A stretch of 55,557 nt of DNA. Source: a virus. The notes beneath the pieces were generated by a model. It made no database searches. It worked only from the letters and a program-made list of their open reading frames with translations, and was not told the DNA's origin. Of the stretch, positions 6,025 to 42,917 are shown in pieces; the first letter of the stretch is position 1, and each line of letters begins with the position of its first letter. Made by a program: the position numbers and the translations under genes. The stretch is from IMG/VR virus record IMGVR_UViG_3300044699_000015, positions 1 through 55,557 of that record; one strand, written 5' to 3'.

Positions 6025-6500
6025 TGAAAATAAACCCTGAAATGATTTTTATTTACGGCATCTTTAACGAGTGCGGCTCATGCGTTTACGTTGGGCGCTC
6101 TTGTTCTCCGATGAAAAGATTCAATCTTCACCAGTGTGTAAACGGCAAATTTCATGGCCGAAAAGTGACGATGAAAGTTTTTCGCGCCACGCTTCCGCAA
6201 CATGCGAATAGAATTGAGAATCAAATAGGCGTTGCTTATCGGAAAAGAGGGCAAGCGATTTACTCGAAAACATGGACAAATAGCCCTAAAATACCAAAGC
6301 ATATTGGTGGAACCCACGTTTACGTTGAGGGGATAGAAAAGCCATTCCCTAGCATAAATGCCGCTGGCCGTGCGCTTGGCGTATCGAACACGACGGTTTC
6401 AGAGTATTTGCGTGTGGGGTTTTTCTTTTCTGAGGAATACGAAAGAGATTTCCGAATAGCAACATCCCCTATGCCTTTAGTAATAGATTTTCAGATTTAA
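6024..6500 (+). CDS. GIY-YIG endonuclease with NUMOD1/IENR1-type DNA-binding tail
   Basis: A 158-residue free-standing homing-type endonuclease. The N-terminus has the GIY-YIG core: IYGIFN (residues 10-15), YVGRS (22-26) with the catalytic Arg, then RFNLHQ (32-37). The C-terminal half has the short NUMOD1/IENR1 motif, around FPSINAAGRALGVSNTTVSEYL, which is a helix-turn-helix that guides homing enzymes to their site. It opens a rightward operon directly opposite the early operon, right at the control region, where it may have inserted. A GTG at 6018 is also in frame, but the ATG at 6024 fits the short-leader promoter better. Confidence 0.82.
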   Translation: MKINPEMIFIYGIFNECGSCVYVGRSCSPMKRFNLHQCVNGKFHGRKVTMKVFRATLPQHANRIENQIGVAYRKRGQAIYSKTWTNSPKIPKHIGGTHVYVEGIEKPFPSINAAGRALGVSNTTVSEYLRVGFFFSEEYERDFRIATSPMPLVIDFQI

Positions 6501-6522
6501 AAACGTCCGTATTTTTGCGGAG

Positions 6523-6550
6523 TTTACAATATATACTCTTAATGTATGAT
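6523..6550 (+). promoter_or_regulatory. promoter upstream of 23-aa leader gene
   Basis: TTTACA (6523-6528), 16-base spacer, TATGAT (6545-6550). The first ATG lies only 6 bases beyond the -10 box, implying a leaderless transcript. Directly upstream (6511-6523) is a T-run followed by CGGAGT, a pattern that recurs at 8319-8331 and 41429-41438. Confidence 0.5.
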
Positions 6551-6556
6551 TCAACC

Positions 6557-6628
6557 ATGACAAACAAAACAACTCAACCAGCCGAACAAAGTATGCAAAC
6601 CAATTCAAACGAGCGGGGGAATGTATGA
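6557..6628 (+). CDS. 23-aa leader peptide
   Basis: Open frame MTNKTTQPAEQSMQTNSNERG-NV, ending in a TGA that overlaps the ATG of the next gene (ATGA at 6625-6628). A G-rich ribosome site for the downstream gene lies within its last codons. The composition (Thr, Asn, Gln) is hydrophilic. Likely a translational leader for the 99-residue gene. Confidence 0.5.
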   Translation: MTNKTTQPAEQSMQTNSNERGNV

Positions 6629-6924
6629 GAAAGATAACACGTGATACAATGAGGGCTGACGGTCAAACCGTTGGACAGGCGATGGACAAAGACGCGGCCT
6701 TTCTTCGTAGTGTTGGAATTAACGCACCTGATGGGGCTTTGACTATTGATGAAAAGCTGGATGCCAAGAAGGAGGAGGTTCGCCTTCGTGTTCTGGATGC
6801 TTTAGACGAAGCCTTTAAATCCCCGGAATATCCGAATGGGGGATGGATTGATTCGGACTTAAATAGGCTTTTTAGGACATTGGATTGGCAAACCGAATGT
6901 GTTTTTAACAGAGCAAGAAGCTAA
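6625..6924 (+). CDS. hypothetical protein, 99 aa
   Basis: Not recognised. A charged, mostly helical protein; the middle (IDEKLDAKKEEVRLRVLDAL) looks like a coiled coil and the C-terminus is aromatic (NRLFRTLDWQTECVF). Coupled to the 23-residue leader by an ATGA overlap with a GGGGG ribosome site, and 6 bases from the following gene. Confidence 0.65.
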   Translation: MRKITRDTMRADGQTVGQAMDKDAAFLRSVGINAPDGALTIDEKLDAKKEEVRLRVLDALDEAFKSPEYPNGGWIDSDLNRLFRTLDWQTECVFNRARS

Positions 6925-14690: not shown

Positions 14691-16502
14691 TCAATCGTGG
14701 ACTAATAGCCGTGATTTGATGGCATTTTCAAATTCTTCCATCTCGGCTTGCATGAAGTTATCTGTTGAATCCTCGGATTTGTCAATAATTCCAATGCGGG
14801 TTATCTGGAAACCCAATCTTCTCGCCCCCTCGACCCCTATGGCAAATGTATCCATCAAATCTGGGCTTTTCTTGATTCGCTCCTTCATGTCCTCCTTTTT
14901 CTCTATCTCAATCTTGTTGCCAGCGACGATGGAATACATACGCATCTGGCCCTCTTGAGCGACTTCCTTGGGAAGATTGCGAACTTGTTCGGATTCGATG
15001 GCTTCTCGGGTTGAGAACCATAGTTCGGTCAAAAATTTTGAATAATGCTCCGAACACTTTTTCAATCTCTTTTCAATCATCCCGTATTCATTTTTAACTT
15101 CATGGAACAAATCGTGCCTTACAGGTCGGTCGGTCGGTTTTCCTCCTGCATTCACCGGAATTGGAGATTTATCTTTGAACACTTTTGAAAAAGCATGGCC
15201 GATTGTGCCGATTCCAAATGAGTCGTAAAAACAATTCTCCGATGGAATTCCCAACATATCCAATTTCTCTTTGGCGAATGCTGCAATTTGCTCCTCCGGT
15301 TCCATGCTCGAATTAAGTCTGATTGGAATTATTTCTGGCTCGCTACAATCAATCACGGTTTGTCCATAAGCGTCTTCACCGAACTGCAATTCCATACCCA
15401 CGCATCTATCGCCAGAGCCATAGGCTAAATCAATTGCGTAAAGTTTTGTGCGTTCAGTTCCTTTCCATACAACATCATCAAACGCCTTGTGTTTTTGGCA
15501 TAATGTCATCGTAATCACTCTCCAAGACACCATATTCTTAGAGGGCTTACCGATGCATTGAGAAAACCATTGCCACGAGTCTTTGCCGTGGGTGGAGGCG
15601 ACTGATTCGAGCAATTTATCCGATATTAGAAACGGATAACGGGTTCCCGGAAAATCTTTGTTGGGATTGTCTCTGCCATCAAAGGCGACGACGTGGGCAT
15701 TGTAAAACTTTGATTTCCATTCCTGAGTTTTTTCCGTGTCAACAAATGAATCCCATCCCGCGATAGGCTCTGCGGCTGTGCAAAGCGGTTCCGCGAGGTC
15801 GAGGGGATTGCCTCCCATGCAACCCTTGAAATTTTGATTCACCATCCAATTCGTATATGCGTCCAAAAAACTTGGCTGCATCAATGCGGCCTCATCTCCG
15901 TAGTGCGCCAACTTACCGTCTAATTTTCCGGGTGAGTTGGGAGGCTTAACACCCTGAAATTTTGACATGCCAACAAATCTTCCACCGCTGACGCAGGGCA
16001 CGCACACAATACCTTTATTTATAGTTCTTGCCATTTCATTGTCGTCATCAATATCGTCCGGTGTGATGGCCATTGCCGATTCTAGAACGTATCCGGGAAG
16101 CCAAGGGAACTTTGATTTAGCACGGTTGTATAATTCTTTAACCCGACCCCATACGCGCAATTCCAGTGACCGTTTATCGGTGGAGGAAATCAATGACAAA
16201 GAAGTGTGCGGGAAACAAAAAAAATCTATCAATGGCATGACTGCCATCAGAGTAGTTTTTCCAGAGCTTGCACTTCCAAGAAACACAGTTATTTGATTCT
16301 CAACCATTCTTCTGATTCCCAAAGTGAACCAACGATGCTGTTCGTCTTCTTGGAAAAGAAGTTTGTGAATCCTCAAATATGTATCTACGCGATTCGTTCC
16401 GAGTTTGGCCATTTGTGAATCTGATTGGCCCAACATCCACATTTCGATTTGAAGCTCATGCGTTCCCTCTGGCCATAGAAGCCCATATCTGTTAAGCGAC
16501 AT
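14691..16502 (-). CDS. terL: terminase large subunit
   Basis: The ATP-driven DNA-packaging motor and nuclease. 603 residues with both domains intact. The ATPase has Walker A GSASSGKT (76-83) and Walker B ending in HYGDEAA (acidic pair 203-204). The RNase H-like nuclease has Asp 358 in AIDLAYGSGD, Asp 427 in YDSFGIG and the final Asp 551 in SPDLMDTFAIG. The start at 16502 overlaps the end of an HNH gene by 11 bases. Two Cys-rich genes and the portal follow in the same direction. The packaging type (cos or headful) cannot be read from this. Confidence 0.93.
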   Translation of the reverse strand: MSLNRYGLLWPEGTHELQIEMWMLGQSDSQMAKLGTNRVDTYLRIHKLLFQEDEQHRWFTLGIRRMVENQITVFLGSASSGKTTLMAVMPLIDFFCFPHTSLSLISSTDKRSLELRVWGRVKELYNRAKSKFPWLPGYVLESAMAITPDDIDDDNEMARTINKGIVCVPCVSGGRFVGMSKFQGVKPPNSPGKLDGKLAHYGDEAALMQPSFLDAYTNWMVNQNFKGCMGGNPLDLAEPLCTAAEPIAGWDSFVDTEKTQEWKSKFYNAHVVAFDGRDNPNKDFPGTRYPFLISDKLLESVASTHGKDSWQWFSQCIGKPSKNMVSWRVITMTLCQKHKAFDDVVWKGTERTKLYAIDLAYGSGDRCVGMELQFGEDAYGQTVIDCSEPEIIPIRLNSSMEPEEQIAAFAKEKLDMLGIPSENCFYDSFGIGTIGHAFSKVFKDKSPIPVNAGGKPTDRPVRHDLFHEVKNEYGMIEKRLKKCSEHYSKFLTELWFSTREAIESEQVRNLPKEVAQEGQMRMYSIVAGNKIEIEKKEDMKERIKKSPDLMDTFAIGVEGARRLGFQITRIGIIDKSEDSTDNFMQAEMEEFENAIKSRLLVHD

Positions 16503-17100
16503 TTTTCCACAGCTTTCTTTTCAAAATAAACCCAATCGCAGTTTTGGATACTCCGTATTCTCTGCCTAAAGTTTTCCAAGTCCACCCGCCTATTGCATAT
16601 TTCTGCCTTATTTCTCTCACCTGCCACTCGAACAGTCTTGAGTCTCCATTTCTCTCTCCTCTGGCGACACATTCAGGATGTAGTCTTGGGCCGCTCCTAT
16701 CTCCACGGGCTAATTTTTCTGGATTTGTTCTGGCATAATGGGCATCTCCCCTAATGGTAACTTTTCTTCCCTTTTTAATCATGTCCCTAATGTTATCAAG
16801 ACACGTTCCCAAGAATAAGTGAGAGGGATTTACGCATCCGGGGTTGTCGCAATGGTGACAAATAAAGTGACTCTCTGGAATAACTCCATTTTTTATCATC
16901 CAAACCAAACGGTTTGCGTTATAGGCTCCTTTTCTAACGTAAAACCTTCCATATCCAGAGCGTTTTCTGCCCAACCACTCCCAACAATCGCCATTTTTAT
17001 CAACAAGTGACCAAAATTTAGTCTCCTGTTCGGGAGTTAGTTTGACATATTGCCATTTGCTTGGGATGGTTTCAGAAGAACCGGACATCTTAGTTTTCAT
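16492..17100 (-). CDS. HNH homing endonuclease (HNH_3 type)
   Basis: A 202-residue endonuclease with the HNH_3 block: CWEWLGRKRSGYGRFYV, a RLVWMIKNGVIPE helix, then the catalytic FICHHCDNPGCVNPSHLFLG (His-His and Asn/His pairs with two zinc-type cysteines) and a DNIRDMIKKGRK helix. The C-terminus (TLGREYGVSKTAIGFIL) is a helix-turn-helix for target recognition. It lies immediately upstream of terL and overlaps its first codons; HNH genes next to terL are common, but this one is of the mobile rather than the packaging-partner type. The start at 17100 is chosen over 17181 by protein context. Confidence 0.85.
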   Translation of the reverse strand: MKTKMSGSSETIPSKWQYVKLTPEQETKFWSLVDKNGDCWEWLGRKRSGYGRFYVRKGAYNANRLVWMIKNGVIPESHFICHHCDNPGCVNPSHLFLGTCLDNIRDMIKKGRKVTIRGDAHYARTNPEKLARGDRSGPRLHPECVARGERNGDSRLFEWQVREIRQKYAIGGWTWKTLGREYGVSKTAIGFILKRKLWKNVA

Positions 17101-17184
17101 TCTTATGTTTGGTTTTAGCGGCTCGCGTGGCGTGATTACCATTCGAGCCGTGTTTATTTTGTCATTCCATCGTAAAATCACAAG

Positions 17185-31184: not shown

Positions 31185-31739
31185 TTAATATCCAAGAATT
31201 TGTTTTCGCTTGGCAAGAGAGGCTTCAACTTCTGAAAAGTAAACATTCGTTTCCGAAAGAATGACTTCTGTAACCTCGCGGGTTTTTTCTTGCAGAATCA
31301 TTTTATTGCCATTCTTTTTATACCACTCATAAGCATCCCACTTTCCTGTGATTGCCCTTCCAGCGCCCCACCAATCTGCCACCATTTCTTTTACATACTT
31401 AACCGGCATTTGCATTGGCTTATGCTTTGGCTCATCAGAATCGTTGGTAAGAAGCCAATATTGCCAATGATGTTTATTCGATTTTTGATGATGATTCCAA
31501 GCGTGGTCAAAGGCAGCATCTATTGGCCCTTGAATTAGCCAATATCTAAAATCGTCTGGCTCGTTTTTGTGACTTTTCTCATAGAATTTGTCAACGTAAG
31601 CGAACCATTCGCAAGGAAGAAATTTAGTCCAATCATGGATTATGGCCCTCCAAAACGAAACGCCACATTTTCTGCACGCAAGAAATACAAACCATTTGTG
31701 CAAAATCACATATCTGAGATAGAGGAAATGCTTCTTCAT
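31185..31739 (-). CDS. DUF5662 family protein
   Basis: 184 residues matching the DUF5662 pattern: YLRYVILHKWFVFLACRKCG, then IHDWTKFLPCEWFAYVDKFY, AWNHHQKSNKHHWQYWLL and MPVKYVKEMVADWWGAGRA. The spaced His and Asp residues resemble an HD-type metal site. It is common in phages and of unknown function. ATGA overlap with the end of the scaffold gene. Confidence 0.85.
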   Translation of the reverse strand: MKKHFLYLRYVILHKWFVFLACRKCGVSFWRAIIHDWTKFLPCEWFAYVDKFYEKSHKNEPDDFRYWLIQGPIDAAFDHAWNHHQKSNKHHWQYWLLTNDSDEPKHKPMQMPVKYVKEMVADWWGAGRAITGKWDAYEWYKKNGNKMILQEKTREVTEVILSETNVYFSEVEASLAKRKQILGY

Positions 31740-32986
31740 GCGACAACGCTTTCACGCAAATCTTCAAAGAACCCTTTTTCTTTCTTCTCAGTCGGAGCCT
31801 TTTTGGTGCGAATCTTTCCCGGTGTGCTGCCATTGGCATCTTCCACAGATGCTTTCAATTCTTCCAACTCGGCCTTGAGTGTGTCAATCTGTCGAACCAA
31901 CATGGGATGAGCGGCAGCACGCAGCCGGATAGCAGCATCCAAAGCAATCCTTTCCTCTGGCTTGAGTTTATCGCGGCCAAAGTAGGCTTTATCCACCAGC
32001 GCCATACTTTCATCGAATATAGCTTTGCTATCGGCATCCTTGGGGTCTGGTGAATACAGTTCCGGTGATTCATCCTGCAAATCCTTGGTAATCGCCGCAA
32101 ACGCTTTTGTGGAGCGTTCCAATTGTTCCTCACGTTGCTTCTGTTCGGTATGCTCCTTTTGGATGCGCTCAGCCTCCGCTTGCTTGGTGCGCTCGCCTGC
32201 ATTTTTGTGATAATCCTGCAAGGCGCTATCACGCTGGCGTTTCAATTCATGCAGCTTTTCATACTGCCGCATGACTCCACCAGCACGAGCGCCGAACATC
32301 AATTCTGCTTGTTCCTCTGCTTTGGCGGGTGGCAAACTGAATATCAAAGCAAAGTCGTTGTCCCAAGTAGCCTTGCGTTGCGTGCCGTTGTCATCAACCA
32401 TCAAACCCTCAATCAAACTCTTGGCATATTCCGCCGCCGTGTTGAAAGGCTTTTCGTGCTTCTCTACAAATTCAGGATTTTTCTCATAGCGATAAGTCCC
32501 CACTTCCGCCTCCAATTCCTGAATGCGCTTATCCTTGGCGGTCAATTGTTCAGATAATACCTTGGCATCCCCATTTCCGTTAGCGCCTTCGCGCAGTTTG
32601 GTAATCTCTGCCTCCAATTCCTTACGCTTAGAAAGATTGTAATTAACAACCTTTCTCATGTGCTTCATTGAAGCCGTTTCAACCTTGTTTTTGTCCTCTG
32701 GAGGCAAAACAAGTTCATCAATATCAATTTTATCAGTGGGTTTCTCAGGAGCCTTTTCAATGGGCTTATCCGGTTGTTTTTCCAGAGGTTTATCAGTCGG
32801 TTCCTTCGCGTCTTTTAGGTCTGGTTTGTCCGGTTGTTTAACCACTCGCGCTTTGGCATCTACCGAGGCGAAAGGGCTTTTAGATGGCTTCGGCTCCGGT
32901 GCAGGAGCGGGAGCAACCGCCGCTGCGATTGGTGGAGTTGTAGAAGTCGGAGCCGAAGGTGTGAGGGTGGAAATGGTTTCTGGCAT
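31736..32986 (-). CDS. capsid scaffolding protein
   Basis: 416 residues, highly charged and mostly helical. The N-terminal 90 residues are Pro/Ala/Lys-rich and disordered (PEPKPSKSPFASVDAKARVV), then long coiled coils (KRKELEAEITKLREGANGNG; QLTAKDKRIQELEAEVGTYR) and a basic C-terminal tail (KIRTKKAPTEKKEKGFFEDL), the usual scaffold design in which the basic tail binds the capsid protein. It lies on the opposite strand from the capsid gene and 8.6 kb away, which is unusual. Confidence 0.78.
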   Translation of the reverse strand: MPETISTLTPSAPTSTTPPIAAAVAPAPAPEPKPSKSPFASVDAKARVVKQPDKPDLKDAKEPTDKPLEKQPDKPIEKAPEKPTDKIDIDELVLPPEDKNKVETASMKHMRKVVNYNLSKRKELEAEITKLREGANGNGDAKVLSEQLTAKDKRIQELEAEVGTYRYEKNPEFVEKHEKPFNTAAEYAKSLIEGLMVDDNGTQRKATWDNDFALIFSLPPAKAEEQAELMFGARAGGVMRQYEKLHELKRQRDSALQDYHKNAGERTKQAEAERIQKEHTEQKQREEQLERSTKAFAAITKDLQDESPELYSPDPKDADSKAIFDESMALVDKAYFGRDKLKPEERIALDAAIRLRAAAHPMLVRQIDTLKAELEELKASVEDANGSTPGKIRTKKAPTEKKEKGFFEDLRESVVA

Positions 32987-33792: not shown

Positions 33793-33894
33793 TCAAGGCA
33801 ACAATAGGGCAAGGATGTTTCCCAACCACACACCAACAAGTTCAATTGGAAGCATCAGCAGACACAATAAAATATACAGCTTCCAAGTTTTCAT
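33793..33894 (-). CDS. 33-aa membrane peptide
   Basis: MKTWKLYILLCLLMLPIELV-GVWLGNILALLLP: almost the whole peptide is one membrane span. Its ATG overlaps the stop of the glycosyltransferase gene by 4 bases. A small membrane peptide next to sugar-transfer genes may anchor or help them. Confidence 0.55.
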   Translation of the reverse strand: MKTWKLYILLCLLMLPIELVGVWLGNILALLLP

Positions 33895-34457
33895 CTCGGC
33901 CTCCCATCGTGACAATAAGTGATTCCCTGCAACTGTCTCACTTTCCAACCTCGTTTTAGCACAACATCCAGCCAAGTTTGGTCAACGGGGCTTGGCGTTG
34001 GTTTGATTGACTTGGCTAGTTCCATTGGAACAAACAGACCCACAGGCCCACCTTCCGGGCCATTGTTGTAAATGCTTGGGCCAAGCTGATAGAACTGAGC
34101 ATTAGCCGCGCAATCCATCGGCATCCTTTCCATTTGTTCCAGCCATGTGTTGCCTATCACCCAAGAATCGTCATCGAATAGCCATGCCCATTTGCCTTGC
34201 GCGATGTCCAGCAAATCATCTGCGAATCTACCCATATCCATGTAGCCCGCACCACGCGGGCCAATGACGGTTTTAACGCCATACCCAGCTTTCAAATCTG
34301 GAATGTCTATTATTCTTCGACTGTCATCGTCATCAATGCGTAGCAGGATTTCCACTTTGGAATTATCGCTGCAAGTGTCACGGATGGATTTTAGGGCTTT
34401 GATTAAGCCTTCCAATGGCCCGCGAGTGGGCATTATTACGCTGATAAGTGGTGTCAT
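33891..34457 (-). CDS. family-2-like (GT-A) glycosyltransferase
   Basis: 188 residues with a GT-A nucleotide-sugar domain. The start ISVIMPTRGPLEGLIKALKS is the typical GT2 first strand, LLRIDDDDSRR and LFDDDSWVIG supply the DxD-type metal site, and CHDGRPR ends it. It lacks the usual C-terminal extension and membrane segments, so probably acts on a soluble or virion acceptor. In the glycan cassette; its ATG overlaps the preceding stop. Confidence 0.72.
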   Translation of the reverse strand: MTPLISVIMPTRGPLEGLIKALKSIRDTCSDNSKVEILLRIDDDDSRRIIDIPDLKAGYGVKTVIGPRGAGYMDMGRFADDLLDIAQGKWAWLFDDDSWVIGNTWLEQMERMPMDCAANAQFYQLGPSIYNNGPEGGPVGLFVPMELAKSIKPTPSPVDQTWLDVVLKRGWKVRQLQGITYCHDGRPR

Positions 34458-35173
34458 ATAAGGTGTAAATCTGTGTTCGGGTGTTGGTCTGACATGACAG
34501 GATAGTTAGCCTCTACAAAATCGCCGCAGTAGGTGTTAGGTTTTCCACCCTCCAATCCTTTAATAACCGGCGCGAATGTTATGCCTTTGCTAAGTGAAGC
34601 GGCCCACCACGCGAAAGTTGAATTTGAACGGAATAATACCGGCGCGTGCATCAGGCGATAGAACGATGGCACAGAAACCCAAGTTGTGCCTAATCCTGCC
34701 GCAATCGCATCGCCATCAAATCCAGCTAGTCGCGTAGGGTTTGTGTCAGTCTCCCAACCAAAATCATTTGCATCAAATCCAGCGCGGGTAGCAGCGTCAA
34801 TGTAGGATTGTCGAGAGAGCGACACCATGCCTGAATCAATGTAATCCTTACCTTCGCGCACGTTTAGCAACACCTTGGGAATGTTCTTTTTCAACACTTG
34901 TAATCGTTCTTCGATTTCAGGTCTGAACGTGAACCACTCGCGTACTTGCTTGAGACTATAAATAATTGATTCCTGATTTTGATAGGTGGACTCTGGAAGT
35001 TTTATGTCGGGATTGTCAGTTCTGACTGCGTTAGGAATGTTGAATATCTTTTCACCAATCCACGGCGGAATTGCTAAGTCGTAGCCATCGCGTTCGCACA
35101 TGGCACGCGCTGTCGCATACTGGAATAAAATGTTACCAAGCCTGCCGGTTAACATTACTGATAAAGTGGGCAT
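34454..35173 (-). CDS. fucosyltransferase-like (GT11) enzyme
   Basis: 239 residues. The N-terminus LTGRLGNILFQYATARAM is the classical GT11 signature (alpha-1,2-fucosyltransferase), and the later FRSNSTFAWWAASLSKG matches the GDP-fucose-binding SSFSWWAA motif. The two motifs are at the spacing expected for the family. It therefore probably transfers fucose or a related deoxysugar. The start at 35173 is ATG (an upstream TTG is ignored) and overlaps the stop of the next gene. Confidence 0.75.
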   Translation of the reverse strand: MPTLSVMLTGRLGNILFQYATARAMCERDGYDLAIPPWIGEKIFNIPNAVRTDNPDIKLPESTYQNQESIIYSLKQVREWFTFRPEIEERLQVLKKNIPKVLLNVREGKDYIDSGMVSLSRQSYIDAATRAGFDANDFGWETDTNPTRLAGFDGDAIAAGLGTTWVSVPSFYRLMHAPVLFRSNSTFAWWAASLSKGITFAPVIKGLEGGKPNTYCGDFVEANYPVMSDQHPNTDLHLI

Positions 35174-36102
35174 CAAATTCCTTTTATTTCTGTTCCATCA
35201 TACCAATCGTGGGTTGGCCATGTCGGAATGGGCCAAGGTTTTCCACCGAGAATATCGCTTCTCAATTGTCTAATATCGAAAGGGTGTGCGGCGCGTTTTA
35301 AGCCTCTTAATTTAGCCAGCAAAGCATGAGTCTTGTCGTTTGGAGACACGCCCTTATCTTCGCGCTTCATTACATAGCCCAATTCGGAAGGCGTTCTGTC
35401 CTCCACAATCTTTATGCGCTTGTCATACATGATGGGATAGCCGTTATTCTGCATCATCAATCCGAATATGCAATCCTCCATTGAACACCCGTCGCAAGTT
35501 TCGTCCCAAGAATTGATATTCAAAACCCACTCCAAGGGTGCTCCCAAACAGGCTCCAAAAGTCCACTCGCCGGGGGCCTTAAATGGCTCTGGCTTCTTCC
35601 AGAATTTGTCCACATATTCCTCTCGTGAATCTTTTCCTATCACGATTCCCCCATGCGTGATAACCCCATCGGTGACTATCATTCCGGTTCTTTTTTCATA
35701 AGCGCCAGCAACTATGTATCTTTCTTTTATGGCCTGTCGAACTGGTTCCATCCAACCGGGAAATAATACACACCTATCATCCAAAAACATGATGTAATCT
35801 GTTTCACAGAGACAGACGGCGGTTGAACGAGCGGAGGACATGGCCCACCAATCTTGCGAAGTAACACGATGTTTTCCTTGCCAAACAGTCGGTTTAGGTT
35901 CAGTCCAAATCCATTTTATACCCAAATCATTCAGCTTAAATTTAACGCCGGTTCTGCCGCCAATTTCCGGCTTGTCGGCATAAAAATCGGTAACGATTAT
36001 ACGAACATCTTCGCCTTTGTTTAATTGTGGACGCAAGGAGTCAACAAACCAATCAAGACACGGGCGCTCTCTAGCCGTTGTGTATGCAATCGTGAGACTC
36101 AT
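35173..36102 (-). CDS. glycosyltransferase-like protein (GT-A), 309 aa
   Basis: Opens LTIAYTTARERPCLDWFVDS, then RIIVTDFYADKP, and has a central CLCETDYIMFLDDRCVLFPG with a DxD-like motif, then VIGKDSREEYV and a Cys-rich MEDCIFG segment. This is the GT-A arrangement with a metal motif after the fourth strand. Substrate unknown. Overlaps both neighbours by a few bases, in the glycan cassette. Confidence 0.65.
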   Translation of the reverse strand: MSLTIAYTTARERPCLDWFVDSLRPQLNKGEDVRIIVTDFYADKPEIGGRTGVKFKLNDLGIKWIWTEPKPTVWQGKHRVTSQDWWAMSSARSTAVCLCETDYIMFLDDRCVLFPGWMEPVRQAIKERYIVAGAYEKRTGMIVTDGVITHGGIVIGKDSREEYVDKFWKKPEPFKAPGEWTFGACLGAPLEWVLNINSWDETCDGCSMEDCIFGLMMQNNGYPIMYDKRIKIVEDRTPSELGYVMKREDKGVSPNDKTHALLAKLRGLKRAAHPFDIRQLRSDILGGKPWPIPTWPTHDWYDGTEIKGI

Positions 36103-36701
36103 TATCTTATCCTTTGGTAAACCGCGCCTGTTCCGAGTGGGTAGAGATGGACAAAACCAAGTTCGCGTAATCGCGCTTCTGATTGAAGCACAAACCCGCC
36201 CGTCCAGTTCAGGTCATCGAGTATGCAGTAGCCTCCAACTCTGATTTTGGAAGCATATCGGTTCACATCACGAATTGCTTGGTCTGTGTGCTGGCCATCC
36301 AGTGACGCGATGTCCAAATTATCAGGAGGATAGAAATTATCCGACTTCACACGATGCACTTTAACAATGTTTTGCGTTCCGGTTTCCACAACCTTATCCA
36401 TGAACTTTTTGTAAACAGCATCGTGATTTATTGTTCCCCAAAAATGAGCATTAACAGGGTCATAGCCTTCGATTGAAGCAGCAGAACTCCATGGGTCAAC
36501 GGCAACAGCTTGACCGATGCCGTTGTGTTTTTGAGCCATTGCCATAGGCAAGAAACTGGCCCCACCGAAAACACCAACCTCCAACACGAGCTTGGGGCGA
36601 ATGGCGACGACTAGCGCAGCCATAGATAAACATTTTTCAATAGGAGCCCACCCATCCCATGTTGGCCGCATTTCTTCGATTTGTTGAAAGAGTTTAATCA
36701 T
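36102..36701 (-). CDS. SAM-dependent methyltransferase (class I)
   Basis: 199 residues. The SAM-binding motif is KLVLEVGVFGGASFLPMAMA (G-x-G loop), with a second acidic strand AVAVDPWSS and LDIASLDGQHTDQ; this resembles the methyltransferases that act on sugars and is often called Methyltransf_24. It could O-methylate a glycan made by the neighbouring transferases. The start at 36701 overlaps the DHH gene's stop by 4 bases; a longer in-frame reading would overlap that gene by 130. Confidence 0.72.
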   Translation of the reverse strand: MIKLFQQIEEMRPTWDGWAPIEKCLSMAALVVAIRPKLVLEVGVFGGASFLPMAMAQKHNGIGQAVAVDPWSSAASIEGYDPVNAHFWGTINHDAVYKKFMDKVVETGTQNIVKVHRVKSDNFYPPDNLDIASLDGQHTDQAIRDVNRYASKIRVGGYCILDDLNWTGGFVLQSEARLRELGFVHLYPLGTGAVYQRIR

Positions 36702-37576
36702 GTAAGAAACGGCAGTTTTTTCATTCTGAATCCGCATGCACCACGATGACCGCCGCCACCATACTTCACGGCAATCTTTGAAAGGTCGTGATGCTCTTTT
36801 CCGGGTGCGTGATAAAGCGAAACACTCCAATCTTTACCAGTCCATTTGAAACCGAAACAGGCATCATGCTCTGGGGTTAATCCTGCCGTGAACAAAAAGG
36901 AATTGTATCGTGCATGATTGCACGCCTTGAACTTCAAACCCTCCCACTCCAAATCAAAACCGATGTCTTTGATTATTGATTCATTCTGTTTGGTTTGAGA
37001 ATATTGCAGGCACCTGCCCTGTTCTAGTAATTTTACTACGAACTCTTGTGCGTAAAATCCCTCTGATAGTAAAACTAACCATTCTGTTTCATTTATATCC
37101 TGACTGCGTAATCCGTGTTGAAACAATTCGGCATTGGAATCTCGCTTGTCCCAAATGTCATATTCACCAGCCAAGCGAACAGCTAAAGGCTCCGGTAAAG
37201 AGCGGTCAATAAACATTTGTTTATCTGGCCTCTCCCAATATGGGTTAGAATCTCCTGTTTCTGGAACAAGATGTGCGAACCAAATCCATGCAAGGCGGCA
37301 AGCTGCCACTCCGTCAATTCTCCAACCGTCAATGGTTCCGGGGTATTTATCAATCGCGCTCTTGTGATGGTCAATCCACACCAGACCCGGAAAACCCATC
37401 AATCCATCAATGCTTATATCCAGCATGTAAAGCTTTGTTCCTTTTTCTATGGCCGGAACTTGTTGCCCATAATCCCATCCAATAAGTTTCGCATCTGGTA
37501 GGAATTTCTTGGCAATCTCTCGACAGAAAATGCCGTCAAAGTCTGCCGAGTGGTGAATTACAGTTGTTTTGTTCAT
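36698..37576 (-). CDS. DHH-family phosphoesterase
   Basis: 292 residues with the two DHH-superfamily domains. Motif I is HHSADFDGIFC (metal Asp residues 12 and 14), the DHH motif is in WIDHHKSAI (69-71), and the C-terminal DHHA1 end KYGGGGHRGACGF supplies the GGGH loop. Such enzymes cleave short RNAs, pAp or cyclic dinucleotides; a phage member could degrade a host alarm signal. Start at 37576 overlaps the preceding stop. It sits inside the glycan cassette, which has no obvious need for it. Confidence 0.85.
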   Translation of the reverse strand: MNKTTVIHHSADFDGIFCREIAKKFLPDAKLIGWDYGQQVPAIEKGTKLYMLDISIDGLMGFPGLVWIDHHKSAIDKYPGTIDGWRIDGVAACRLAWIWFAHLVPETGDSNPYWERPDKQMFIDRSLPEPLAVRLAGEYDIWDKRDSNAELFQHGLRSQDINETEWLVLLSEGFYAQEFVVKLLEQGRCLQYSQTKQNESIIKDIGFDLEWEGLKFKACNHARYNSFLFTAGLTPEHDACFGFKWTGKDWSVSLYHAPGKEHHDLSKIAVKYGGGGHRGACGFRMKKLPFLT

Positions 37577-38031
37577 AGGTTTTCTAATGGTATTTTCACA
37601 ATCGCACACTGACCGTCGTTGATTCCCACAGAGACCAAAATATTTCCGTTGCTCTCAATCGCGCCACCGGGGAAAGCCACATTCTTTTTGTATTGCAGAC
37701 AATTATTCCTGTCCATCGGGTCTAGTGTGTCCAACTCGCTGCCAGCAAAGAGTGGCTCCTTGCACATTTCAAGAATTTCAAATGGTGGCTCTTTTTTCAT
37801 TACTAACCACCCGACGTAGTATCGATGGCGAGGATTTGAAAATTCCCCATCTCGCCTTGAGTGGAAAATACGCAACAGATTTCCCTTCCATGGAATTACA
37901 ACCCCACCTCTTATTGCTCCAAATTCCCAAGTGGGAGCCTTGGTTTTTATCTCTCTTACCATGTTATCGCCCTCAAGTTCCAAAACAACTTGATTGTCTC
38001 CAACAATTCCATAAACACAGTAGAGTTTCAT
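37573..38031 (-). CDS. GH130-like beta-propeller, C-terminal part
   Basis: 152 residues that match the second half of the five-bladed GH130/glycoside phosphorylase-like fold: GAIRGGVVIPWKGNLLRIFH, then RHRYYVGWLVMKKEPPFEIL, a catalytic-type NVAFPGGAIESNGNILVSVG and NDGQCAIVKI. It starts KLYCVYGIVGDNQVVLE, the point expected right after the EKNWCFF end of the 622-residue gene, and is separated from it by an HNH gene. As a separate gene it has a 4-base overlap with that HNH gene. Confidence 0.75.
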   Translation of the reverse strand: MKLYCVYGIVGDNQVVLELEGDNMVREIKTKAPTWEFGAIRGGVVIPWKGNLLRIFHSRRDGEFSNPRHRYYVGWLVMKKEPPFEILEMCKEPLFAGSELDTLDPMDRNNCLQYKKNVAFPGGAIESNGNILVSVGINDGQCAIVKIPLENL

Positions 38032-38492
38032 GGTATGATGTTCAATCTTCCAAATTCACCGTGGTATTTTAAAGATGCTGCATTGTAAGCCAATGTGGCT
38101 TCCAAGGCAGTTTCAAATCCTCCAAGGAAAATAGCTCTTTTGTCCGACATTATTCTTGCTTCGTATCTTCCATTTTTAACCCTAACCCCCTTAATTCCCA
38201 GCCTATTATTCACGGGAACTTTTCGGTTTCTCATGTTTTGGCTACGAGAACACAATCGGATGTTATCCCTTCGATTGTCCAATGTGTTTCCGTCCTTATG
38301 GTCAACCCATTGATTGCTTTTGGCATTTAAGATTTGACGGTGCATGAGAATTGTTTTTCCATTTTCTACACGGGATGCGTAATAGGTTTTAGTTTCTCCC
38401 CAATGAGCAGACCACTTCCATTGAGATAAAAGGTCATAATCTTGGTCATCAACTATTGTGACCATGCCGTGAGTTAATGGGATTGTTTTCAT
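38028..38492 (-). CDS. HNH-AP2 homing endonuclease inside the GH130-like gene
   Basis: 154 residues. Starts KTIPLTHGMVTIVDDQDYDL, has the HNH core ILMHRQILNAKSNQWVDHKD with NTLDNRRDNIRLCSRSQNMR, and ends in an AP2-like fold (GIKGVRVKNGRYEARIMSDK, then AYNAASLKYHGEFG). The gene is placed between the two halves of the beta-propeller gene with ATGA overlaps at both ends, leaving no room for an intron. Direct repeats ATGAAA mark both joints. Confidence 0.88.
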   Translation of the reverse strand: MKTIPLTHGMVTIVDDQDYDLLSQWKWSAHWGETKTYYASRVENGKTILMHRQILNAKSNQWVDHKDGNTLDNRRDNIRLCSRSQNMRNRKVPVNNRLGIKGVRVKNGRYEARIMSDKRAIFLGGFETALEATLAYNAASLKYHGEFGRLNIIP

Positions 38493-40357
38493 ACAGAGAA
38501 GAAGCACCAGTTTTTTTCGGATGATGTGAAGTCGTTCCCGCCATACTTGGGCTGTTTCACATTGATTAAAGTCCAGCGGCCTCGAATGTTTGTCAGTTGC
38601 CCATATTTCACCACGCAAACGTATTCGTTCGGAAGGCGTGACTCGGTGTAAGAGCAATACAAATCGTTGCCATGATGGAATAATCGCCCGTCCTCTGTGC
38701 TATACATCAAATCGCCTTCCAGCCATTGATTATTCAGCACATTGAATTGTTCATCCAATTCTGCAATGGCGAGTTGGGTTGTGAGATTGCCGGTGCGGTG
38801 GCTGCGATACATCATTAGGAGCCTGCCATCGTGACGGATAATGGAGGGGTTATAACCGTATGCGTAAACAGCCTTGGCATTGATAATCGAACAATCCACT
38901 TGGTCAACGACTGACGGTTTCGCCGTGGACAATCCAATCTTCTTGGCAAACTCCACCAACAATTCTTCGTTGTATTTGCGATAGGGCGATGGCTTGTATT
39001 CAACCGGCGCAGAATCTTCGCGTTTGCACACTCCCCATTCAGCATCCTTACCCATGAACGCGGCTAGACCCTGACACCAGTTTTGTTCGCTGCCCATCAC
39101 AAAGTCCGGTATCAACTCCACATTGTTATCCCACCATTCGCGGGTGAACATAAAAGCATCAATCTGCGAACGCTTTTCACCGTTGATATAGCGATGGCTA
39201 TACGCTGGCATGGGGCGTTGTTCGAGTTCTGAACCCGTTGGGAATATATCAGGCCGAGTCAGCATAATTACATCCTTGGCATCTGCCTTGAGCGTAGCCA
39301 ACCTCACAGCATCTTTCAGGAATGGATAACGATAGATTTCATCCGGCCATTTCACCTTGGTATCCCTGCCGAACGAACCTATCTCCATTGGCGACGATAC
39401 CCACGCGCCTAAGTCATAGCTCTTTTGCCATTCTTTCTTTGCCCGCTGATGCCTCTCCTTATTGGCCTCGGTGATTTCGTATTGCGACCAGACGTGGACA
39501 ACTTTAGGGCTTGAAATACCCTTGGCGAAAAAGGAGCCAGCTTTTCCAATGTTCCCGATTGCCCCCAAAATTTCCACGGCGCGATTGGGAAAGTCACCAT
39601 AACGAACATGCGCGATGTATTGCGGCCTATTCGGGCTTCCGTGCCAAAGTGAGGGTTGGTCTTGTGTGAGCGCAACAACCGGAAGCGCAGGACAAGCGTA
39701 GGCGAGTTGCAAGGTGGCCGTATCGCAGGAGACAAGACATTTTGTGTTGGGATGCTCATAGATGCCTAACAAATCGTAAAAACGGTCTGCGCGGATTTTG
39801 GATATGTCCACGATTTCATACCAGCGTCCAAACCGGAGCCGCAACATTTCCATCAGGACATTGCCCCACGGAAACGGGCTGGTAACGCCTCCAAGGTTGC
39901 ACAGAATCCACCCTTTCTTACCGGATGGCATTTTCTTTAACAGTTCTGATTCACGAACGGGTTGGCGATTGTCGAACACCAAAGGATATTGATTCTTCCA
40001 TTCAGCCAACCGGCCTAACAATCGCCATTGCTCTTTAGCGAATGATTCACAGTATTGCGCGTTTATGTCGATGCCGGATTTAACGTAGGCTTCGCGCAGG
40101 ACCGTTTCTCTGTCACCACACACTTGAGCGATTTTGTAGCCCTCATCAATCGTCTTGGCGAAATCCACAGCACGCGATAGTTCCATGAAGTTACCGTTGA
40201 ATACGATTGGGTCTAGATAACTTACGCCGTCCAGCAAGGAGGCATAGTCATGGGAGACGATTAGCTTCCAGCGATTACCACGCTCATTGTCGAAGCGGGC
40301 GAGAGGGAGAAGGTTGATTACGTCGCCCAATTTTCCGAGTGCTAAAATCGTGGGCAT
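38489..40357 (-). CDS. GT9-like / GT-A-like / GH130-like fusion, N-terminal part
   Basis: 622 residues, apparently three domains. The N-terminus (ILALGKLGDVINLLPLARFD; later SCDTATLQLAYACPALPVVA) resembles heptosyltransferases of family GT9. A middle domain has DVIMLTRPDIFPTGSELEQR and DFVMGSEQNWCQGLAAFM, suggestive of a second sugar-transfer domain. The C-terminus YGYNPSIIRHDGRLLMMYRS to TSSEKNWCFFS is the first half of a GH130-like propeller. It ends exactly where the inserted HNH gene starts. The start at 40357 follows the membrane gene by one base. Confidence 0.68.
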   Translation of the reverse strand: MPTILALGKLGDVINLLPLARFDNERGNRWKLIVSHDYASLLDGVSYLDPIVFNGNFMELSRAVDFAKTIDEGYKIAQVCGDRETVLREAYVKSGIDINAQYCESFAKEQWRLLGRLAEWKNQYPLVFDNRQPVRESELLKKMPSGKKGWILCNLGGVTSPFPWGNVLMEMLRLRFGRWYEIVDISKIRADRFYDLLGIYEHPNTKCLVSCDTATLQLAYACPALPVVALTQDQPSLWHGSPNRPQYIAHVRYGDFPNRAVEILGAIGNIGKAGSFFAKGISSPKVVHVWSQYEITEANKERHQRAKKEWQKSYDLGAWVSSPMEIGSFGRDTKVKWPDEIYRYPFLKDAVRLATLKADAKDVIMLTRPDIFPTGSELEQRPMPAYSHRYINGEKRSQIDAFMFTREWWDNNVELIPDFVMGSEQNWCQGLAAFMGKDAEWGVCKREDSAPVEYKPSPYRKYNEELLVEFAKKIGLSTAKPSVVDQVDCSIINAKAVYAYGYNPSIIRHDGRLLMMYRSHRTGNLTTQLAIAELDEQFNVLNNQWLEGDLMYSTEDGRLFHHGNDLYCSYTESRLPNEYVCVVKYGQLTNIRGRWTLINVKQPKYGGNDFTSSEKNWCFFSV

Positions 40358-40514: not shown

Positions 40515-40708
40515 TGACCAGCCTTTCCGTTAATCTTTTCTAGGAGGCATTTTTTGCAAGTCTTATGAGGTTCATTGTCCTGATACAAATAACTGTGCAA
40601 AGTTTTAATTGGAATATCCAAGATGTCAGCGGCTTCCTTGTGGCTCAACTTGGTGTTGTCCAGCCATGTTAGCAACGATGTTTTGAAGGAGATTTCAGGC
40701 AGGGGCAT
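40511..40708 (-). CDS. HTH protein, 65 aa
   Basis: A short DNA-binding protein: SFKTSLLTWLDNTKLSHKEA, ADILDIPIKTLHSYLYQDNE gives a helix-turn-helix with a regulator-like fold, then a C-terminal CKKC. The start at 40708 is chosen over a longer frame that would lie inside the HNH gene. Could regulate the following glycan genes. Confidence 0.65.
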   Translation of the reverse strand: MPLPEISFKTSLLTWLDNTKLSHKEAADILDIPIKTLHSYLYQDNEPHKTCKKCLLEKINGKAGQ

Positions 40709-41369
40709 ATTTCGCGCCTTTGGAAATGTTTTCTCTCCACCAAAGAGGTTGCAGGTTTGTATAATGAAAGCAGATTTTTTGTTGCTCTGGGTCGAATAAA
40801 TCAAAGGAACTTATAGGCCGCACATGGTCAACATGCCAGCCGAAACGACCACGATTAGCCCAAGTCATTCCGGGTTTAAATTTCGACTCCAAATGTTTTT
40901 CAAGCTCCGGAATAGTGCATCCCAATAATTCCATTGTCTCTGCTGCTTTTTTGCCACCCGGAAATTTCAAGGCCATAAGGATTCTGGCTCGCATGTCGCA
41001 ACGAAGTTTAAATTGCGGGTCTGTTTTCAGACGCCGATACATGTTTCTCTTGCTATTCGCCTTAACACGCTCTTTATTGTTCTGGTAATAGAGATTGTCT
41101 TTTGCCTTTTTATTTTCTAAATGCTTTAAACGGTAATTCCTATTCCATTTCTTCTTTTGCTCTTTGGTGACAGACTTTTTCCTGCGCTTGGGGTCTTTAT
41201 GATAACGCTCTTTATCATAAGCATTTAACTTTTCCCTATTTTGTTCACGGTGTTTCTTGACCCATGCTTTGCGCTTTGCTTTCCATTCGGGGTCGGCGCG
41301 TCTCAATGCCAATTCAGCTTTGCGCTCTTGGTATCTCGCCTCACTCCACGCAACCTTATCAAATGCCAT
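40695..41369 (-). CDS. HNH endonuclease, 224 aa
   Basis: First gene of the leftward scaffold/glycan transcript. The N-terminal 100 residues are extremely basic and helical (KKWNRNYRLKHLENKKAKDN). The C-terminal domain has the HNH core: GWHVDHVRPISSFDLFDPEQ, then ICFHYTNLQPLWWRENISKG. This family is found in many phages. The ATG at 41369 is preceded at a distance of 6 bases by a -10 box, so the transcript is probably leaderless. Confidence 0.85.
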   Translation of the reverse strand: MAFDKVAWSEARYQERKAELALRRADPEWKAKRKAWVKKHREQNREKLNAYDKERYHKDPKRRKKSVTKEQKKKWNRNYRLKHLENKKAKDNLYYQNNKERVKANSKRNMYRRLKTDPQFKLRCDMRARILMALKFPGGKKAAETMELLGCTIPELEKHLESKFKPGMTWANRGRFGWHVDHVRPISSFDLFDPEQQKICFHYTNLQPLWWRENISKGAKYAPA

Positions 41370-41606: not shown

Positions 41607-42917
41607 ATGGCAATCGACTGCTCCAAGTTCAACAGCTTTTTGCTGAGAAGAACCCCCGATTTTGATAAACAGTTATCAAAAGACCGTTATCCGTTCAGCT
41701 ATCTCTACACCAACATGTATGAGAGCCAGCCTTTCACAGCGTTTACAGGCTTTCAACACACTTGGGATAGGGTGCATGTGACTCGTCCCAACGATGATGG
41801 CAATTGGGATACGGTCAACTCGAACGACTGCGCTCAAAACATCTGCGATTATTCGCGTGTGTTCACAGGTTGGGGTTCGACTCGTTCTACGTATGGCATT
41901 TTCCATCGGGACTATCAGTCGCCGGTGTTCTGCTTTGACCAGTTAAGACATGTGGAGGAAGCGGAAGCGCAATTGTCGGCTATCGTTGACGGCCACAAGA
42001 AATTGCCTGATAGCATCATTTCGGATTTCCTTCGTTTGCTCGCCATGCGGCAGTCCAATGTGATTTGGATTTGCGGCTCGGCGGATACGCAAGTGACAAC
42101 CACCGATTCAATGTTCACGTTCACTAACGGCACATTGAATGTCAATTTGGGTGGCACAGGAAATCTGCCTGATTCCAAGCTTTCCATCCAATATCTGAAC
42201 AACCACGTCGAAAACCTGATGTATAACGGTTATTTTGACCAAGACTTTATCCCCACGGGTAAGTTTTCGGTCACTACCGACATTCAGACGCAAACGGATT
42301 TGACCAATGCTAATCCATCGTTGACGCAGATGTATAACGCGGCTGACTTTGTGAAGGGCGGAAAATTCTTCGCCTATGGCGTTATGTCCGGTGCGGGTAA
42401 TTGGTTGTTCAAGGTTGACCCGGAACCGATGCGTTTTCAGCATATTGGCTCTGGCGTCCTTCGGCGCATTCTGCCCTATCAGAACGTGGCAACTACTGTG
42501 GGCAAACAGCCGGTGTTTGATACCGCGTATAAGAACGCAGAGTATCAGATGTATCACGTCTATAATCGTGCGGCTCGCAAGATTGAGGTTGGCGACATTA
42601 CGCCGGTCAATCCTGAAATGAAGTTCAACACGGCGCGTTCGCTCATGGGCAAATGGTCATGGAAGTCGCCTGATTACTTCCGCGCCACCGACCCGAACAC
42701 TGGGACAGTGTGCGAATACATGAACGACAAGAAGAACAAGGGTTACTTTTTGGCTGAGTTCGAGATGGGTGCAAAAACCATCTACCCGGAAATCGAAATG
42801 GTCATCATTGCGAAACGTGAACCGCAGGGCGTGGTTAGCATTCCGCGTTGTGCCGATTCGCCTTCGATGGTCTATCAGTCGCTCACGCCTTACAATGGGC
42901 CTCTGTGCGAGCAATAA
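41607..42917 (+). CDS. probable major capsid protein
   Basis: 436 residues, no cysteine-rich region, mixed alpha/beta. Assigned by size, lone position in front of a set of small virion proteins, and style: RTPDFDKQLSKDRYPFSYLY near the N-terminus, then a long central domain and a C-terminal KSPDYFRATDPNTGTVCEYM with IYPEIEMVIIAKREPQ. The ATG lacks a good ribosome site (AAAAGATAAG upstream). Scaffold is on the other strand 8.6 kb away. HK97-fold assignment cannot be proved by eye. Confidence 0.72.
   Translation: MAIDCSKFNSFLLRRTPDFDKQLSKDRYPFSYLYTNMYESQPFTAFTGFQHTWDRVHVTRPNDDGNWDTVNSNDCAQNICDYSRVFTGWGSTRSTYGIFHRDYQSPVFCFDQLRHVEEAEAQLSAIVDGHKKLPDSIISDFLRLLAMRQSNVIWICGSADTQVTTTDSMFTFTNGTLNVNLGGTGNLPDSKLSIQYLNNHVENLMYNGYFDQDFIPTGKFSVTTDIQTQTDLTNANPSLTQMYNAADFVKGGKFFAYGVMSGAGNWLFKVDPEPMRFQHIGSGVLRRILPYQNVATTVGKQPVFDTAYKNAEYQMYHVYNRAARKIEVGDITPVNPEMKFNTARSLMGKWSWKSPDYFRATDPNTGTVCEYMNDKKNKGYFLAEFEMGAKTIYPEIEMVIIAKREPQGVVSIPRCADSPSMVYQSLTPYNGPLCEQ

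Follow-up and report, generated by a model that had tools for sequence, protein, structure and literature searches.

The window analysed here is the whole 55,557-base stretch of the IMG/VR record IMGVR_UViG_3300044699_000015, one uncultivated tailed-phage record; coordinates are window positions unless another record is named, and other records are denoted by L numbers. Its minus strand carries a cassette of predicted sugar-enzyme genes, at the start of which the two parts of a GT9-like/GH130-like gene lie on either side of a homing-endonuclease-type gene. The seven coupled genes listed in a preliminary description of this locus were indeed present on the minus strand at the coordinates given there, but an eighth, the endonuclease gene, had been missed. 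The features at the interruption are:

38489-40357, minus strand: protein 1 (622 amino acids), with a GT9-like region (about residues 1-270), a middle domain (about 280-440) and the N-terminal half of a GH130-like five-bladed propeller (about 495-622)
38489-38492, minus strand: 5' junction ATGA, the stop of protein 1 over the endonuclease start (direct sequence)
38028-38492, minus strand: homing-endonuclease-type gene, 154 amino acids, HNH_3 with a weak AP2 match (Pfam, PHROGs)
38028-38031, minus strand: 3' junction ATGA, the endonuclease stop over the start of protein 2 (direct sequence)
37573-38031, minus strand: protein 2 (152 amino acids), the C-terminal half of the GH130-like enzyme (alignment to intact homologues)

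It is practically certain that a single GT9-like/GH130-like gene was split by the endonuclease. The insertion site lies within the conserved EKNW-x-FF-(5 residues)-LY motif of the GH130-like gene, and intact enzymes align to protein 1 as far as its final residues and to protein 2 from its first ones onward. Intact proteins were retrieved with a degenerate EKNW-x-FF pattern; more than 50 viral GH130-like proteins obtained in this way run uninterrupted through the site, and in most of the intact proteins compared five residues separate FF from the next L. When tblastn was used, the C-terminus of protein 1 and protein 2 were found to be adjacent in L012, L024, L046 and others, and protein 2 shared 43-47% identity with the C-terminal halves of intact L133, L168 and L173. 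At least 13 related phages (L154-L158, L160, L161, L168, L171, L172, L174, L175 and L178) read through in one frame. The whole GT9-middle-GH130 fusion is intact in L157 as one 778-amino-acid protein, of which protein 1 represents residues 1 to about 621; in L133/L155 protein 1 corresponds to one gene and half of the next. The window was the sole split case found among the relatives compared. The "GH130 half" previously taken for a separate gene is instead the C-terminal half of the split gene, both halves being spanned by intact homologues.

The endonuclease matched HNH_3 (2.4e-8, 33.9 bits against a cut-off of 24.8) and phrog_99 (3.9e-37), and it belongs with HNH endonucleases that are common in phages, its relatives numbering 1,334 records in the phage collection. 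The two junctions are both 4-nucleotide ATGA overlaps, and for that reason protein 1, the endonuclease and protein 2 look translationally coupled. The guanine-plus-cytosine (GC) content of the endonuclease gene was 0.40 and its third-position value (GC3) was 0.37, compared with a GC3 of 0.57 in the upstream GH130 part; GC3 was 0.39 over the first 75 codons (about 225 bases) of protein 2. This low-GC stretch weakly suggests a co-conversion tract that arrived with the endonuclease. Along the minus strand from 37920 to 38505, GC dips to 0.37-0.43 over the endonuclease, stays low into early protein 2 and then recovers.

The nature of the split enzyme was assessed from its intact homologues. The Pfam GH130 (PF04041) cut-off of 26 bits was exceeded by L022 (63 bits), L024 (38 bits) and L172 (28 bits); protein 2 by itself scored 12.4 bits, below that cut-off. 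The L157 model (predicted local distance difference test score, pLDDT, 83.5) has the GH130 five-bladed propeller fold and matched GH130 phosphorylases in Foldseek (E 6e-12, target template-modelling (TM) score 0.68), and the window halves were placed by alignment to L157. The split site falls in a turn between strands 619-623 and 626-632 of this model, where a chain break should be tolerable, though directly past the conserved EKNW motif. The invariant aspartate of the E-D-x-R motif, described as the sole potential catalytic acid of GH130 enzymes (PMC4599007), is kept in protein 1, its equivalence to that of TM1225 having been obtained by alignment through L022. Since protein 1 contains this aspartate and protein 2 contains other conserved positions, neither half should work by itself. 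The GH130-like fold matches span phosphorylases, hydrolases and GDP-mannose transferases, and the chemistry may therefore be any of several types. The literature library searched yielded no report of GH130 in a phage cassette of this kind. In L106, L006, L030, L109 and L117 a GH130-like domain is C-terminal in viral open reading frames (ORFs) of 770-890 amino acids, and giant-virus proteins also match the fold; fusion of GH130-like domains to other domains is suggested to recur in viruses.

It is somewhat more likely than not that the split enzyme is functional. In an alignment with 24 intact homologues, 22 columns are at least 85% conserved and the window halves keep 21 of them; with the six columns of the retrieval motif set aside, the unbiased count is 15 of 16. 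When compared to the ten closest homologues, 16 of 17 near-invariant columns are kept in protein 1 and 28 of 30 in protein 2. The window accounts for 0.15 and 0.17 of the total tree length in the two GH130 halves, as against 0.23 for the GT9 part, which is not split, and 0.40 for the capsid gene; from these branch shares there was no sign of relaxed constraint in the GH130 halves. An unlikely alternative is that the insertion inactivated the enzyme, leaving a recent pseudogene whose halves still appear intact. The split is shared by no close relative, a recent insertion would spare conserved residues, and three near-invariant columns are altered (P to D and A to W in the C-terminal half, L to V in the N-terminal half). 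Against this, the reading frames of both halves are open, the two junctions each offer an ATGA at which translation could re-initiate, 44 of the 47 near-invariant positions are kept, and no branch acceleration was observed. Decay had also been considered because protein 2 lacks GG[TS]P, and was rejected; the GGV-VI deviation there has counterparts in L156-L158, which are intact and also lack GG[TS]P.

No close relatives were found in IMG/VR or among named phages with protein 1, protein 2, the capsid protein or the terminase as query, and relatives were obtained only through degenerate motif and profile patterns. A protein 2 profile found L133, which is syntenic and in which GH130 is uninterrupted and ATGA-coupled to a separate GT9-middle gene. 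The capsid profile found ten related records (L152-L161), L155 being the same contig as L133, and one weak match. In seven of them (L154-L158, L160 and L161) the GT9-middle and GH130 regions lie between the capsid and scaffold-side genes; L168, L172 and L173, which carry the same core, were added by the last scan, and in L171, L174, L175 and L178 GT9 is joined to GH130 without the middle domain. No core gene was present in the 4.6-5.8 kb examined on that side in L152 and L159, and in L153 the locus is occupied by other sugar-type genes. The same capsid/scaffold locus holds the cassette in about ten related phages, with varying sugar enzymes. These records represent an undescribed family of uncultivated tailed phages, in which contigs that seem close to complete are about 55 kb long. 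When a host was sought with the capsid profile, the sole match was a short contig in a metagenome-assembled genome from a fen, probably viral carry-over.

The cassette core consists of the GT9-like part (with or without the middle domain) and the GH130-like enzyme, and accessory sugar genes are swapped between phages. One accessory set (window, L155, L160, L161 and L172) comprises a methyltransferase, a GT-A and a GT2 enzyme and sometimes GT11; the other (L154, L157, L158 and L168) comprises a DegT-type aminotransferase, a PglD-type acyltransferase and another transferase-like gene, assigned by Pfam for the L154 set and the L168 aminotransferase and by evident sequence similarity for the others. 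Single-domain GH130-like genes were also seen between scaffold-like and capsid-like genes in L012, L024 and L136, a second group of viral contigs, the capsid genes of which did not match that of the window.

Endonuclease genes were found at other positions in the cassettes of relatives. An AP2-HNH gene lies at the GT9-middle/GH130 junction of L160 and is lacking from its near relative L155; the flanks share 81% and 84% DNA identity, and the spacing is 39 bases in L155 and 825 in L160. In L161 an AP2-HNH gene separates GH130 from the methyltransferase gene, a junction that in L155 consists of an ATGA alone, and both the L160 and L161 genes have an ATGA at the upstream boundary. A different HNH_3 gene occupies the GT9-middle/GH130 junction of L172, and a relative of the window endonuclease is located between two complete genes in L122, with ATGA overlaps on both sides. 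In the endonuclease tree the window copy grouped, with weak support (0.62), with L122, apart from the L160 and L161 copies, and for this reason the three look like separate arrivals. This grouping gave no support to another idea considered, that a single endonuclease lineage has hopped locally within the cassette. An ORF of about 107 amino acids, with ATGA overlaps, was inserted together with the endonuclease between GT9-middle and GH130 in L160 (about 6490-6810 of that record, minus strand) and is absent from L155.

The L155/L160 pair shares 95% identity in the capsid protein, 83% in GT9-middle and 81% in the methyltransferase, but only 57% in most of GH130. For this one pair, local replacement of GH130 is suggested; the first approximately 130 bases of the GH130 gene were not replaced, which places the endonuclease near, not at, the exchange boundary.

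The L160, L161 and L172 endonucleases are at existing gene junctions, a pattern expected if the GH130-like gene was first split into two genes and the endonuclease entered the junction later; seg43 in Aeromonas phage 25 may have such an origin (PMC2988022). For the window this order of events is improbable, since none of the relatives found has GH130 split without an endonuclease and the five-residue loop of intact relatives is at exactly the split point.

A spliced element would also place an endonuclease inside the gene, whether as a group I or group II intron, as an intein, or as a split intein accompanied by a free endonuclease located between the two halves. HNH_3 endonucleases can reside in introns, and spliced elements of this kind typically occupy conserved, functionally critical sites (PMC10448857; PMC2988022). 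This explanation is very improbable. The endonuclease ORF fills the 465-nucleotide insert, with nearly nothing else between the halves, and homology abuts both ends, leaving no space for a ribozyme or splicing domain. There was no Rfam intron match in the window, and a group I/II intron was rejected because the catalytic RNA core is absent and the insert has no spare sequence. An intein was rejected because protein 1, the endonuclease and protein 2 are in three different reading frames and extra residues are absent at both junctions. Chimeric assembly, which the single metagenomic record and the lower GC of the endonuclease and the first approximately 75 codons of protein 2 might suggest, is hardly credible given that the two halves stand on either side of the gene in correct order and orientation, that both of its ends overlap them through ATGA, and that GC shifts gradually, not abruptly, on the 3' side.

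Assignment of the remaining cassette genes rests on Pfam and PHROGs profile matches. These cassette genes and the genes that flank them are:

36698-37576, minus strand: DHH-family phosphoesterase-like gene (phrog_4771, 1.5e-21)
36102-36701, minus strand: S-adenosylmethionine methyltransferase, Methyltransf_24/CmcI type (Methyltransf_24, 3e-10)
35173-36102, minus strand: GT-A glycosyltransferase, GT2-type (Glycos_transf_2, 1.4e-5)
34454-35176, minus strand: GT11-like (fucosyltransferase-like) transferase (phrog_2644 glycosyltransferase, 1e-9; Pfam below cut-off)
33891-34457, minus strand: GT2-like glycosyltransferase (Glycos_transf_2, 3e-4, just under cut-off; 49% in L161)
33793-33894, minus strand: 33-residue membrane peptide (direct sequence)
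31736-32986, minus strand: scaffold-like gene, downstream of the cassette
41607-42917, plus strand: capsid-type (major capsid protein-like) gene, divergent from the cassette (position and homology only)

The Pfam and PHROGs searches supported the methyltransferase, GT-A and DHH assignments and gave weaker support for the GT2-like and GT11-like genes. The DHH gene was not found in the cassettes of relatives and has a homologue in L004 (44% identity). The methyltransferase is likely to start at the ATG that overlaps the DHH stop. Homologues of the GT-A enzyme in L133/L155, L160 and L161 share 44-48% identity. The GT11-like protein scored 0.004 (16.9 bits, cut-off 23.9) against Glyco_transf_11, carries the motifs GRLGNILFQYA and SxFAWWAASL, and has homologues in L161 (52%) and L172 (36%); its predicted structure (pLDDT 36) was too poor to aid assignment. 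Further ATGA overlaps were identified from coordinates and sequence at the protein 2/DHH, DHH/methyltransferase, GT11-like/GT2-like and GT2-like/membrane peptide boundaries. No terminator-like sites were found on the minus strand within the operon, which is weakly suggestive of a single transcript. A defence-system search gave no match.

The GroES gene is also downstream of the cassette on the same strand, and in relatives the cassette is bounded at its distal end by homologues of the scaffold-like gene. The capsid-type gene had no PHROG match; it has weak homology to a gene in the capsid position of L022 and homologues of 38-64% identity in L152-L161. The placement of the cassette between the scaffold/GroES genes and the capsid gene thus holds, but the capsid gene is encoded on the other strand, and only scaffold and GroES share the orientation of the cassette. 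A DUF5662 protein (1.8e-38) is encoded between the scaffold-like and GroES genes (31185-31739, minus strand). Immediately upstream of the operon is an Endonuclease VII/HNH-like gene (40695-41369, minus strand; phrog_1035, 3.7e-14), with a 34% homologue near the L171 capsid gene, and an HNH_3 gene (16492-17181, minus strand; 1.3e-9) overlaps about the first 11 bases of the large terminase gene and is possibly a further homing endonuclease.

Taken together, the data are best read as a glycan-decoration locus that has been invaded repeatedly by homing endonucleases, in this phage with one inside the core enzyme. It is likely that the window holds a glycan cassette at a fixed scaffold/capsid locus, the core of which is fused and has its GH130-like part split by the endonuclease into genes-in-pieces; that the cassette acts on glycans is very likely. 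The core would be a GT9-like glycosyltransferase fused in this phage to a GH130-like enzyme of mannoside phosphorylase/hydrolase type. A promoter-less, intron-less HNH (plus AP2-like) gene would have entered the GH130-like part at the beta-hairpin turn past EKNW-x-FF. From a single transcript, ribosomes that stop at the first ATGA may restart on the endonuclease, and those that stop at its end may restart on the C-terminal half, giving the N-terminal part, the endonuclease and the C-terminal part; the two enzyme parts would probably come together again as a single propeller. In co-infecting relatives the endonuclease would cleave alleles that lack the insertion and then be copied in with flanking cassette DNA, and the insertion-free alleles and differently placed copies in relatives are consistent with homing. 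Coupling, reassembly, cleavage activity, and glycan function and target are all inferred.

The enzyme families are consistent with the building or transfer of a methylated, possibly fucosylated glycan, and the fixed site beside capsid genes together with the swapped accessory enzymes suggests a role in diversifying the coat or surface. The preliminary description of a glycan-modification cassette was borne out as regards sugar enzymes, by the Pfam and fold matches of intact GH130 homologues and by the conserved locus; the full decoration pathway that it proposed was unsupported. A broader version is doubtful, in which a variable coat locus has its alleles exchanged by endonucleases that enter ATGA junctions, their own ends recreating the coupling, and in which entry into a gene in the window produced a two-chain GH130-like enzyme.

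Several points weigh against the preferred reading of a functional, endonuclease-split glycan enzyme. The branch-length and conservation tests fit a recent inactivating insertion equally well, and no close relative of the window was found by which the split might be dated. About one codon of loop is unaccounted for at the junction. The C-terminal AP2 region of the endonuclease, although in the expected position, scored 0.0094 (16.7 bits against a cut-off of 33.3), so that the protein is a putative AP2-HNH (IPA-HNH) enzyme with an AP2-like part. The GT9 and GT11 assignments are also under Pfam cut-offs; there was no Glyco_transf_9 match in the window, and L157 and L158 scored about 17 bits against a cut-off of 22.

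Virion glycosylation is already known in phages that encode glycosyltransferases, and the cassette by itself is therefore not categorically new. Mycobacteriophages Che8 and Rita have glycosyltransferase genes and glycans on the capsid protein (cited in PMC11256854), and the window is comparable in its phage glycosyltransferase genes and its putative decoration. In the related phage described in PMC11256854 the transferase genes are near the 3' end of the genome, whereas the window cassette lies between scaffold and capsid genes and includes a GH130-like enzyme and swappable sugar genes. The window and related proteins share the propeller fold and E-D-x-R aspartate with GH130 mannoside phosphorylases/hydrolases and Leishmania GDP-mannose transferases (PDB 9gph, 7fip, 9erg and 6q4x), but the phage proteins have EKNW-x-FF, are fused to or adjoin GT9-like transferases, and show about 11-16% identity in structural alignments. 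A conserved, content-swapping sugar locus beside a capsid gene offers a setting in which glycan variation of phage coats or host surfaces can be tested.

IPA-HNH/AP2-HNH homing endonucleases are frequent in phages, and nuclease genes have been reported at genetic-exchange boundaries (PMC10448857). The window protein resembles them in its N-terminal HNH and C-terminal AP2-like regions; among the cases considered from that paper most are free-standing and the interrupted genes are spliced, whereas the window gene is interrupted without an intron. The ShiLan insertion in phage methylases is also an HNH gene in a conserved part of an enzyme gene with no detectable splicing element, but it keeps the host frame open, unlike the window, in which the host frame ends and is reopened through ATGA overlaps (PMC11855218). 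T4 gene 60/mobA and Aeromonas phage 25 gene 43/seg43 likewise tie an endonuclease to a gene in two polypeptides (PMC2988022), and the window differs from them in gene, endonuclease family and junction design. Genes split by an intron-less homing endonuclease are few, and those reviewed are replication or nucleotide enzymes of T4-like phages (PMC2988022). If true, an AP2-HNH-split glycan enzyme in a repeatedly invaded locus would mean that ATGA overlaps may admit elements to operons with little harm. A close likeness is to nrdA/mobE of Aeromonas phage Aeh1, in which an intron-less HNH homing endonuclease splits a conserved enzyme gene in a critical region and the fragments are retained (PMC2988022). 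In the window, too, the endonuclease ORF is inside a gene that is continuous in relatives, with no surrounding intron or intein. The Aeh1 gene encodes ribonucleotide reductase, for which split-enzyme function has been proven, whereas the window gene encodes a predicted glycan enzyme, its endonuclease is of the putative AP2-HNH type, and both of its junctions are ATGA overlaps.

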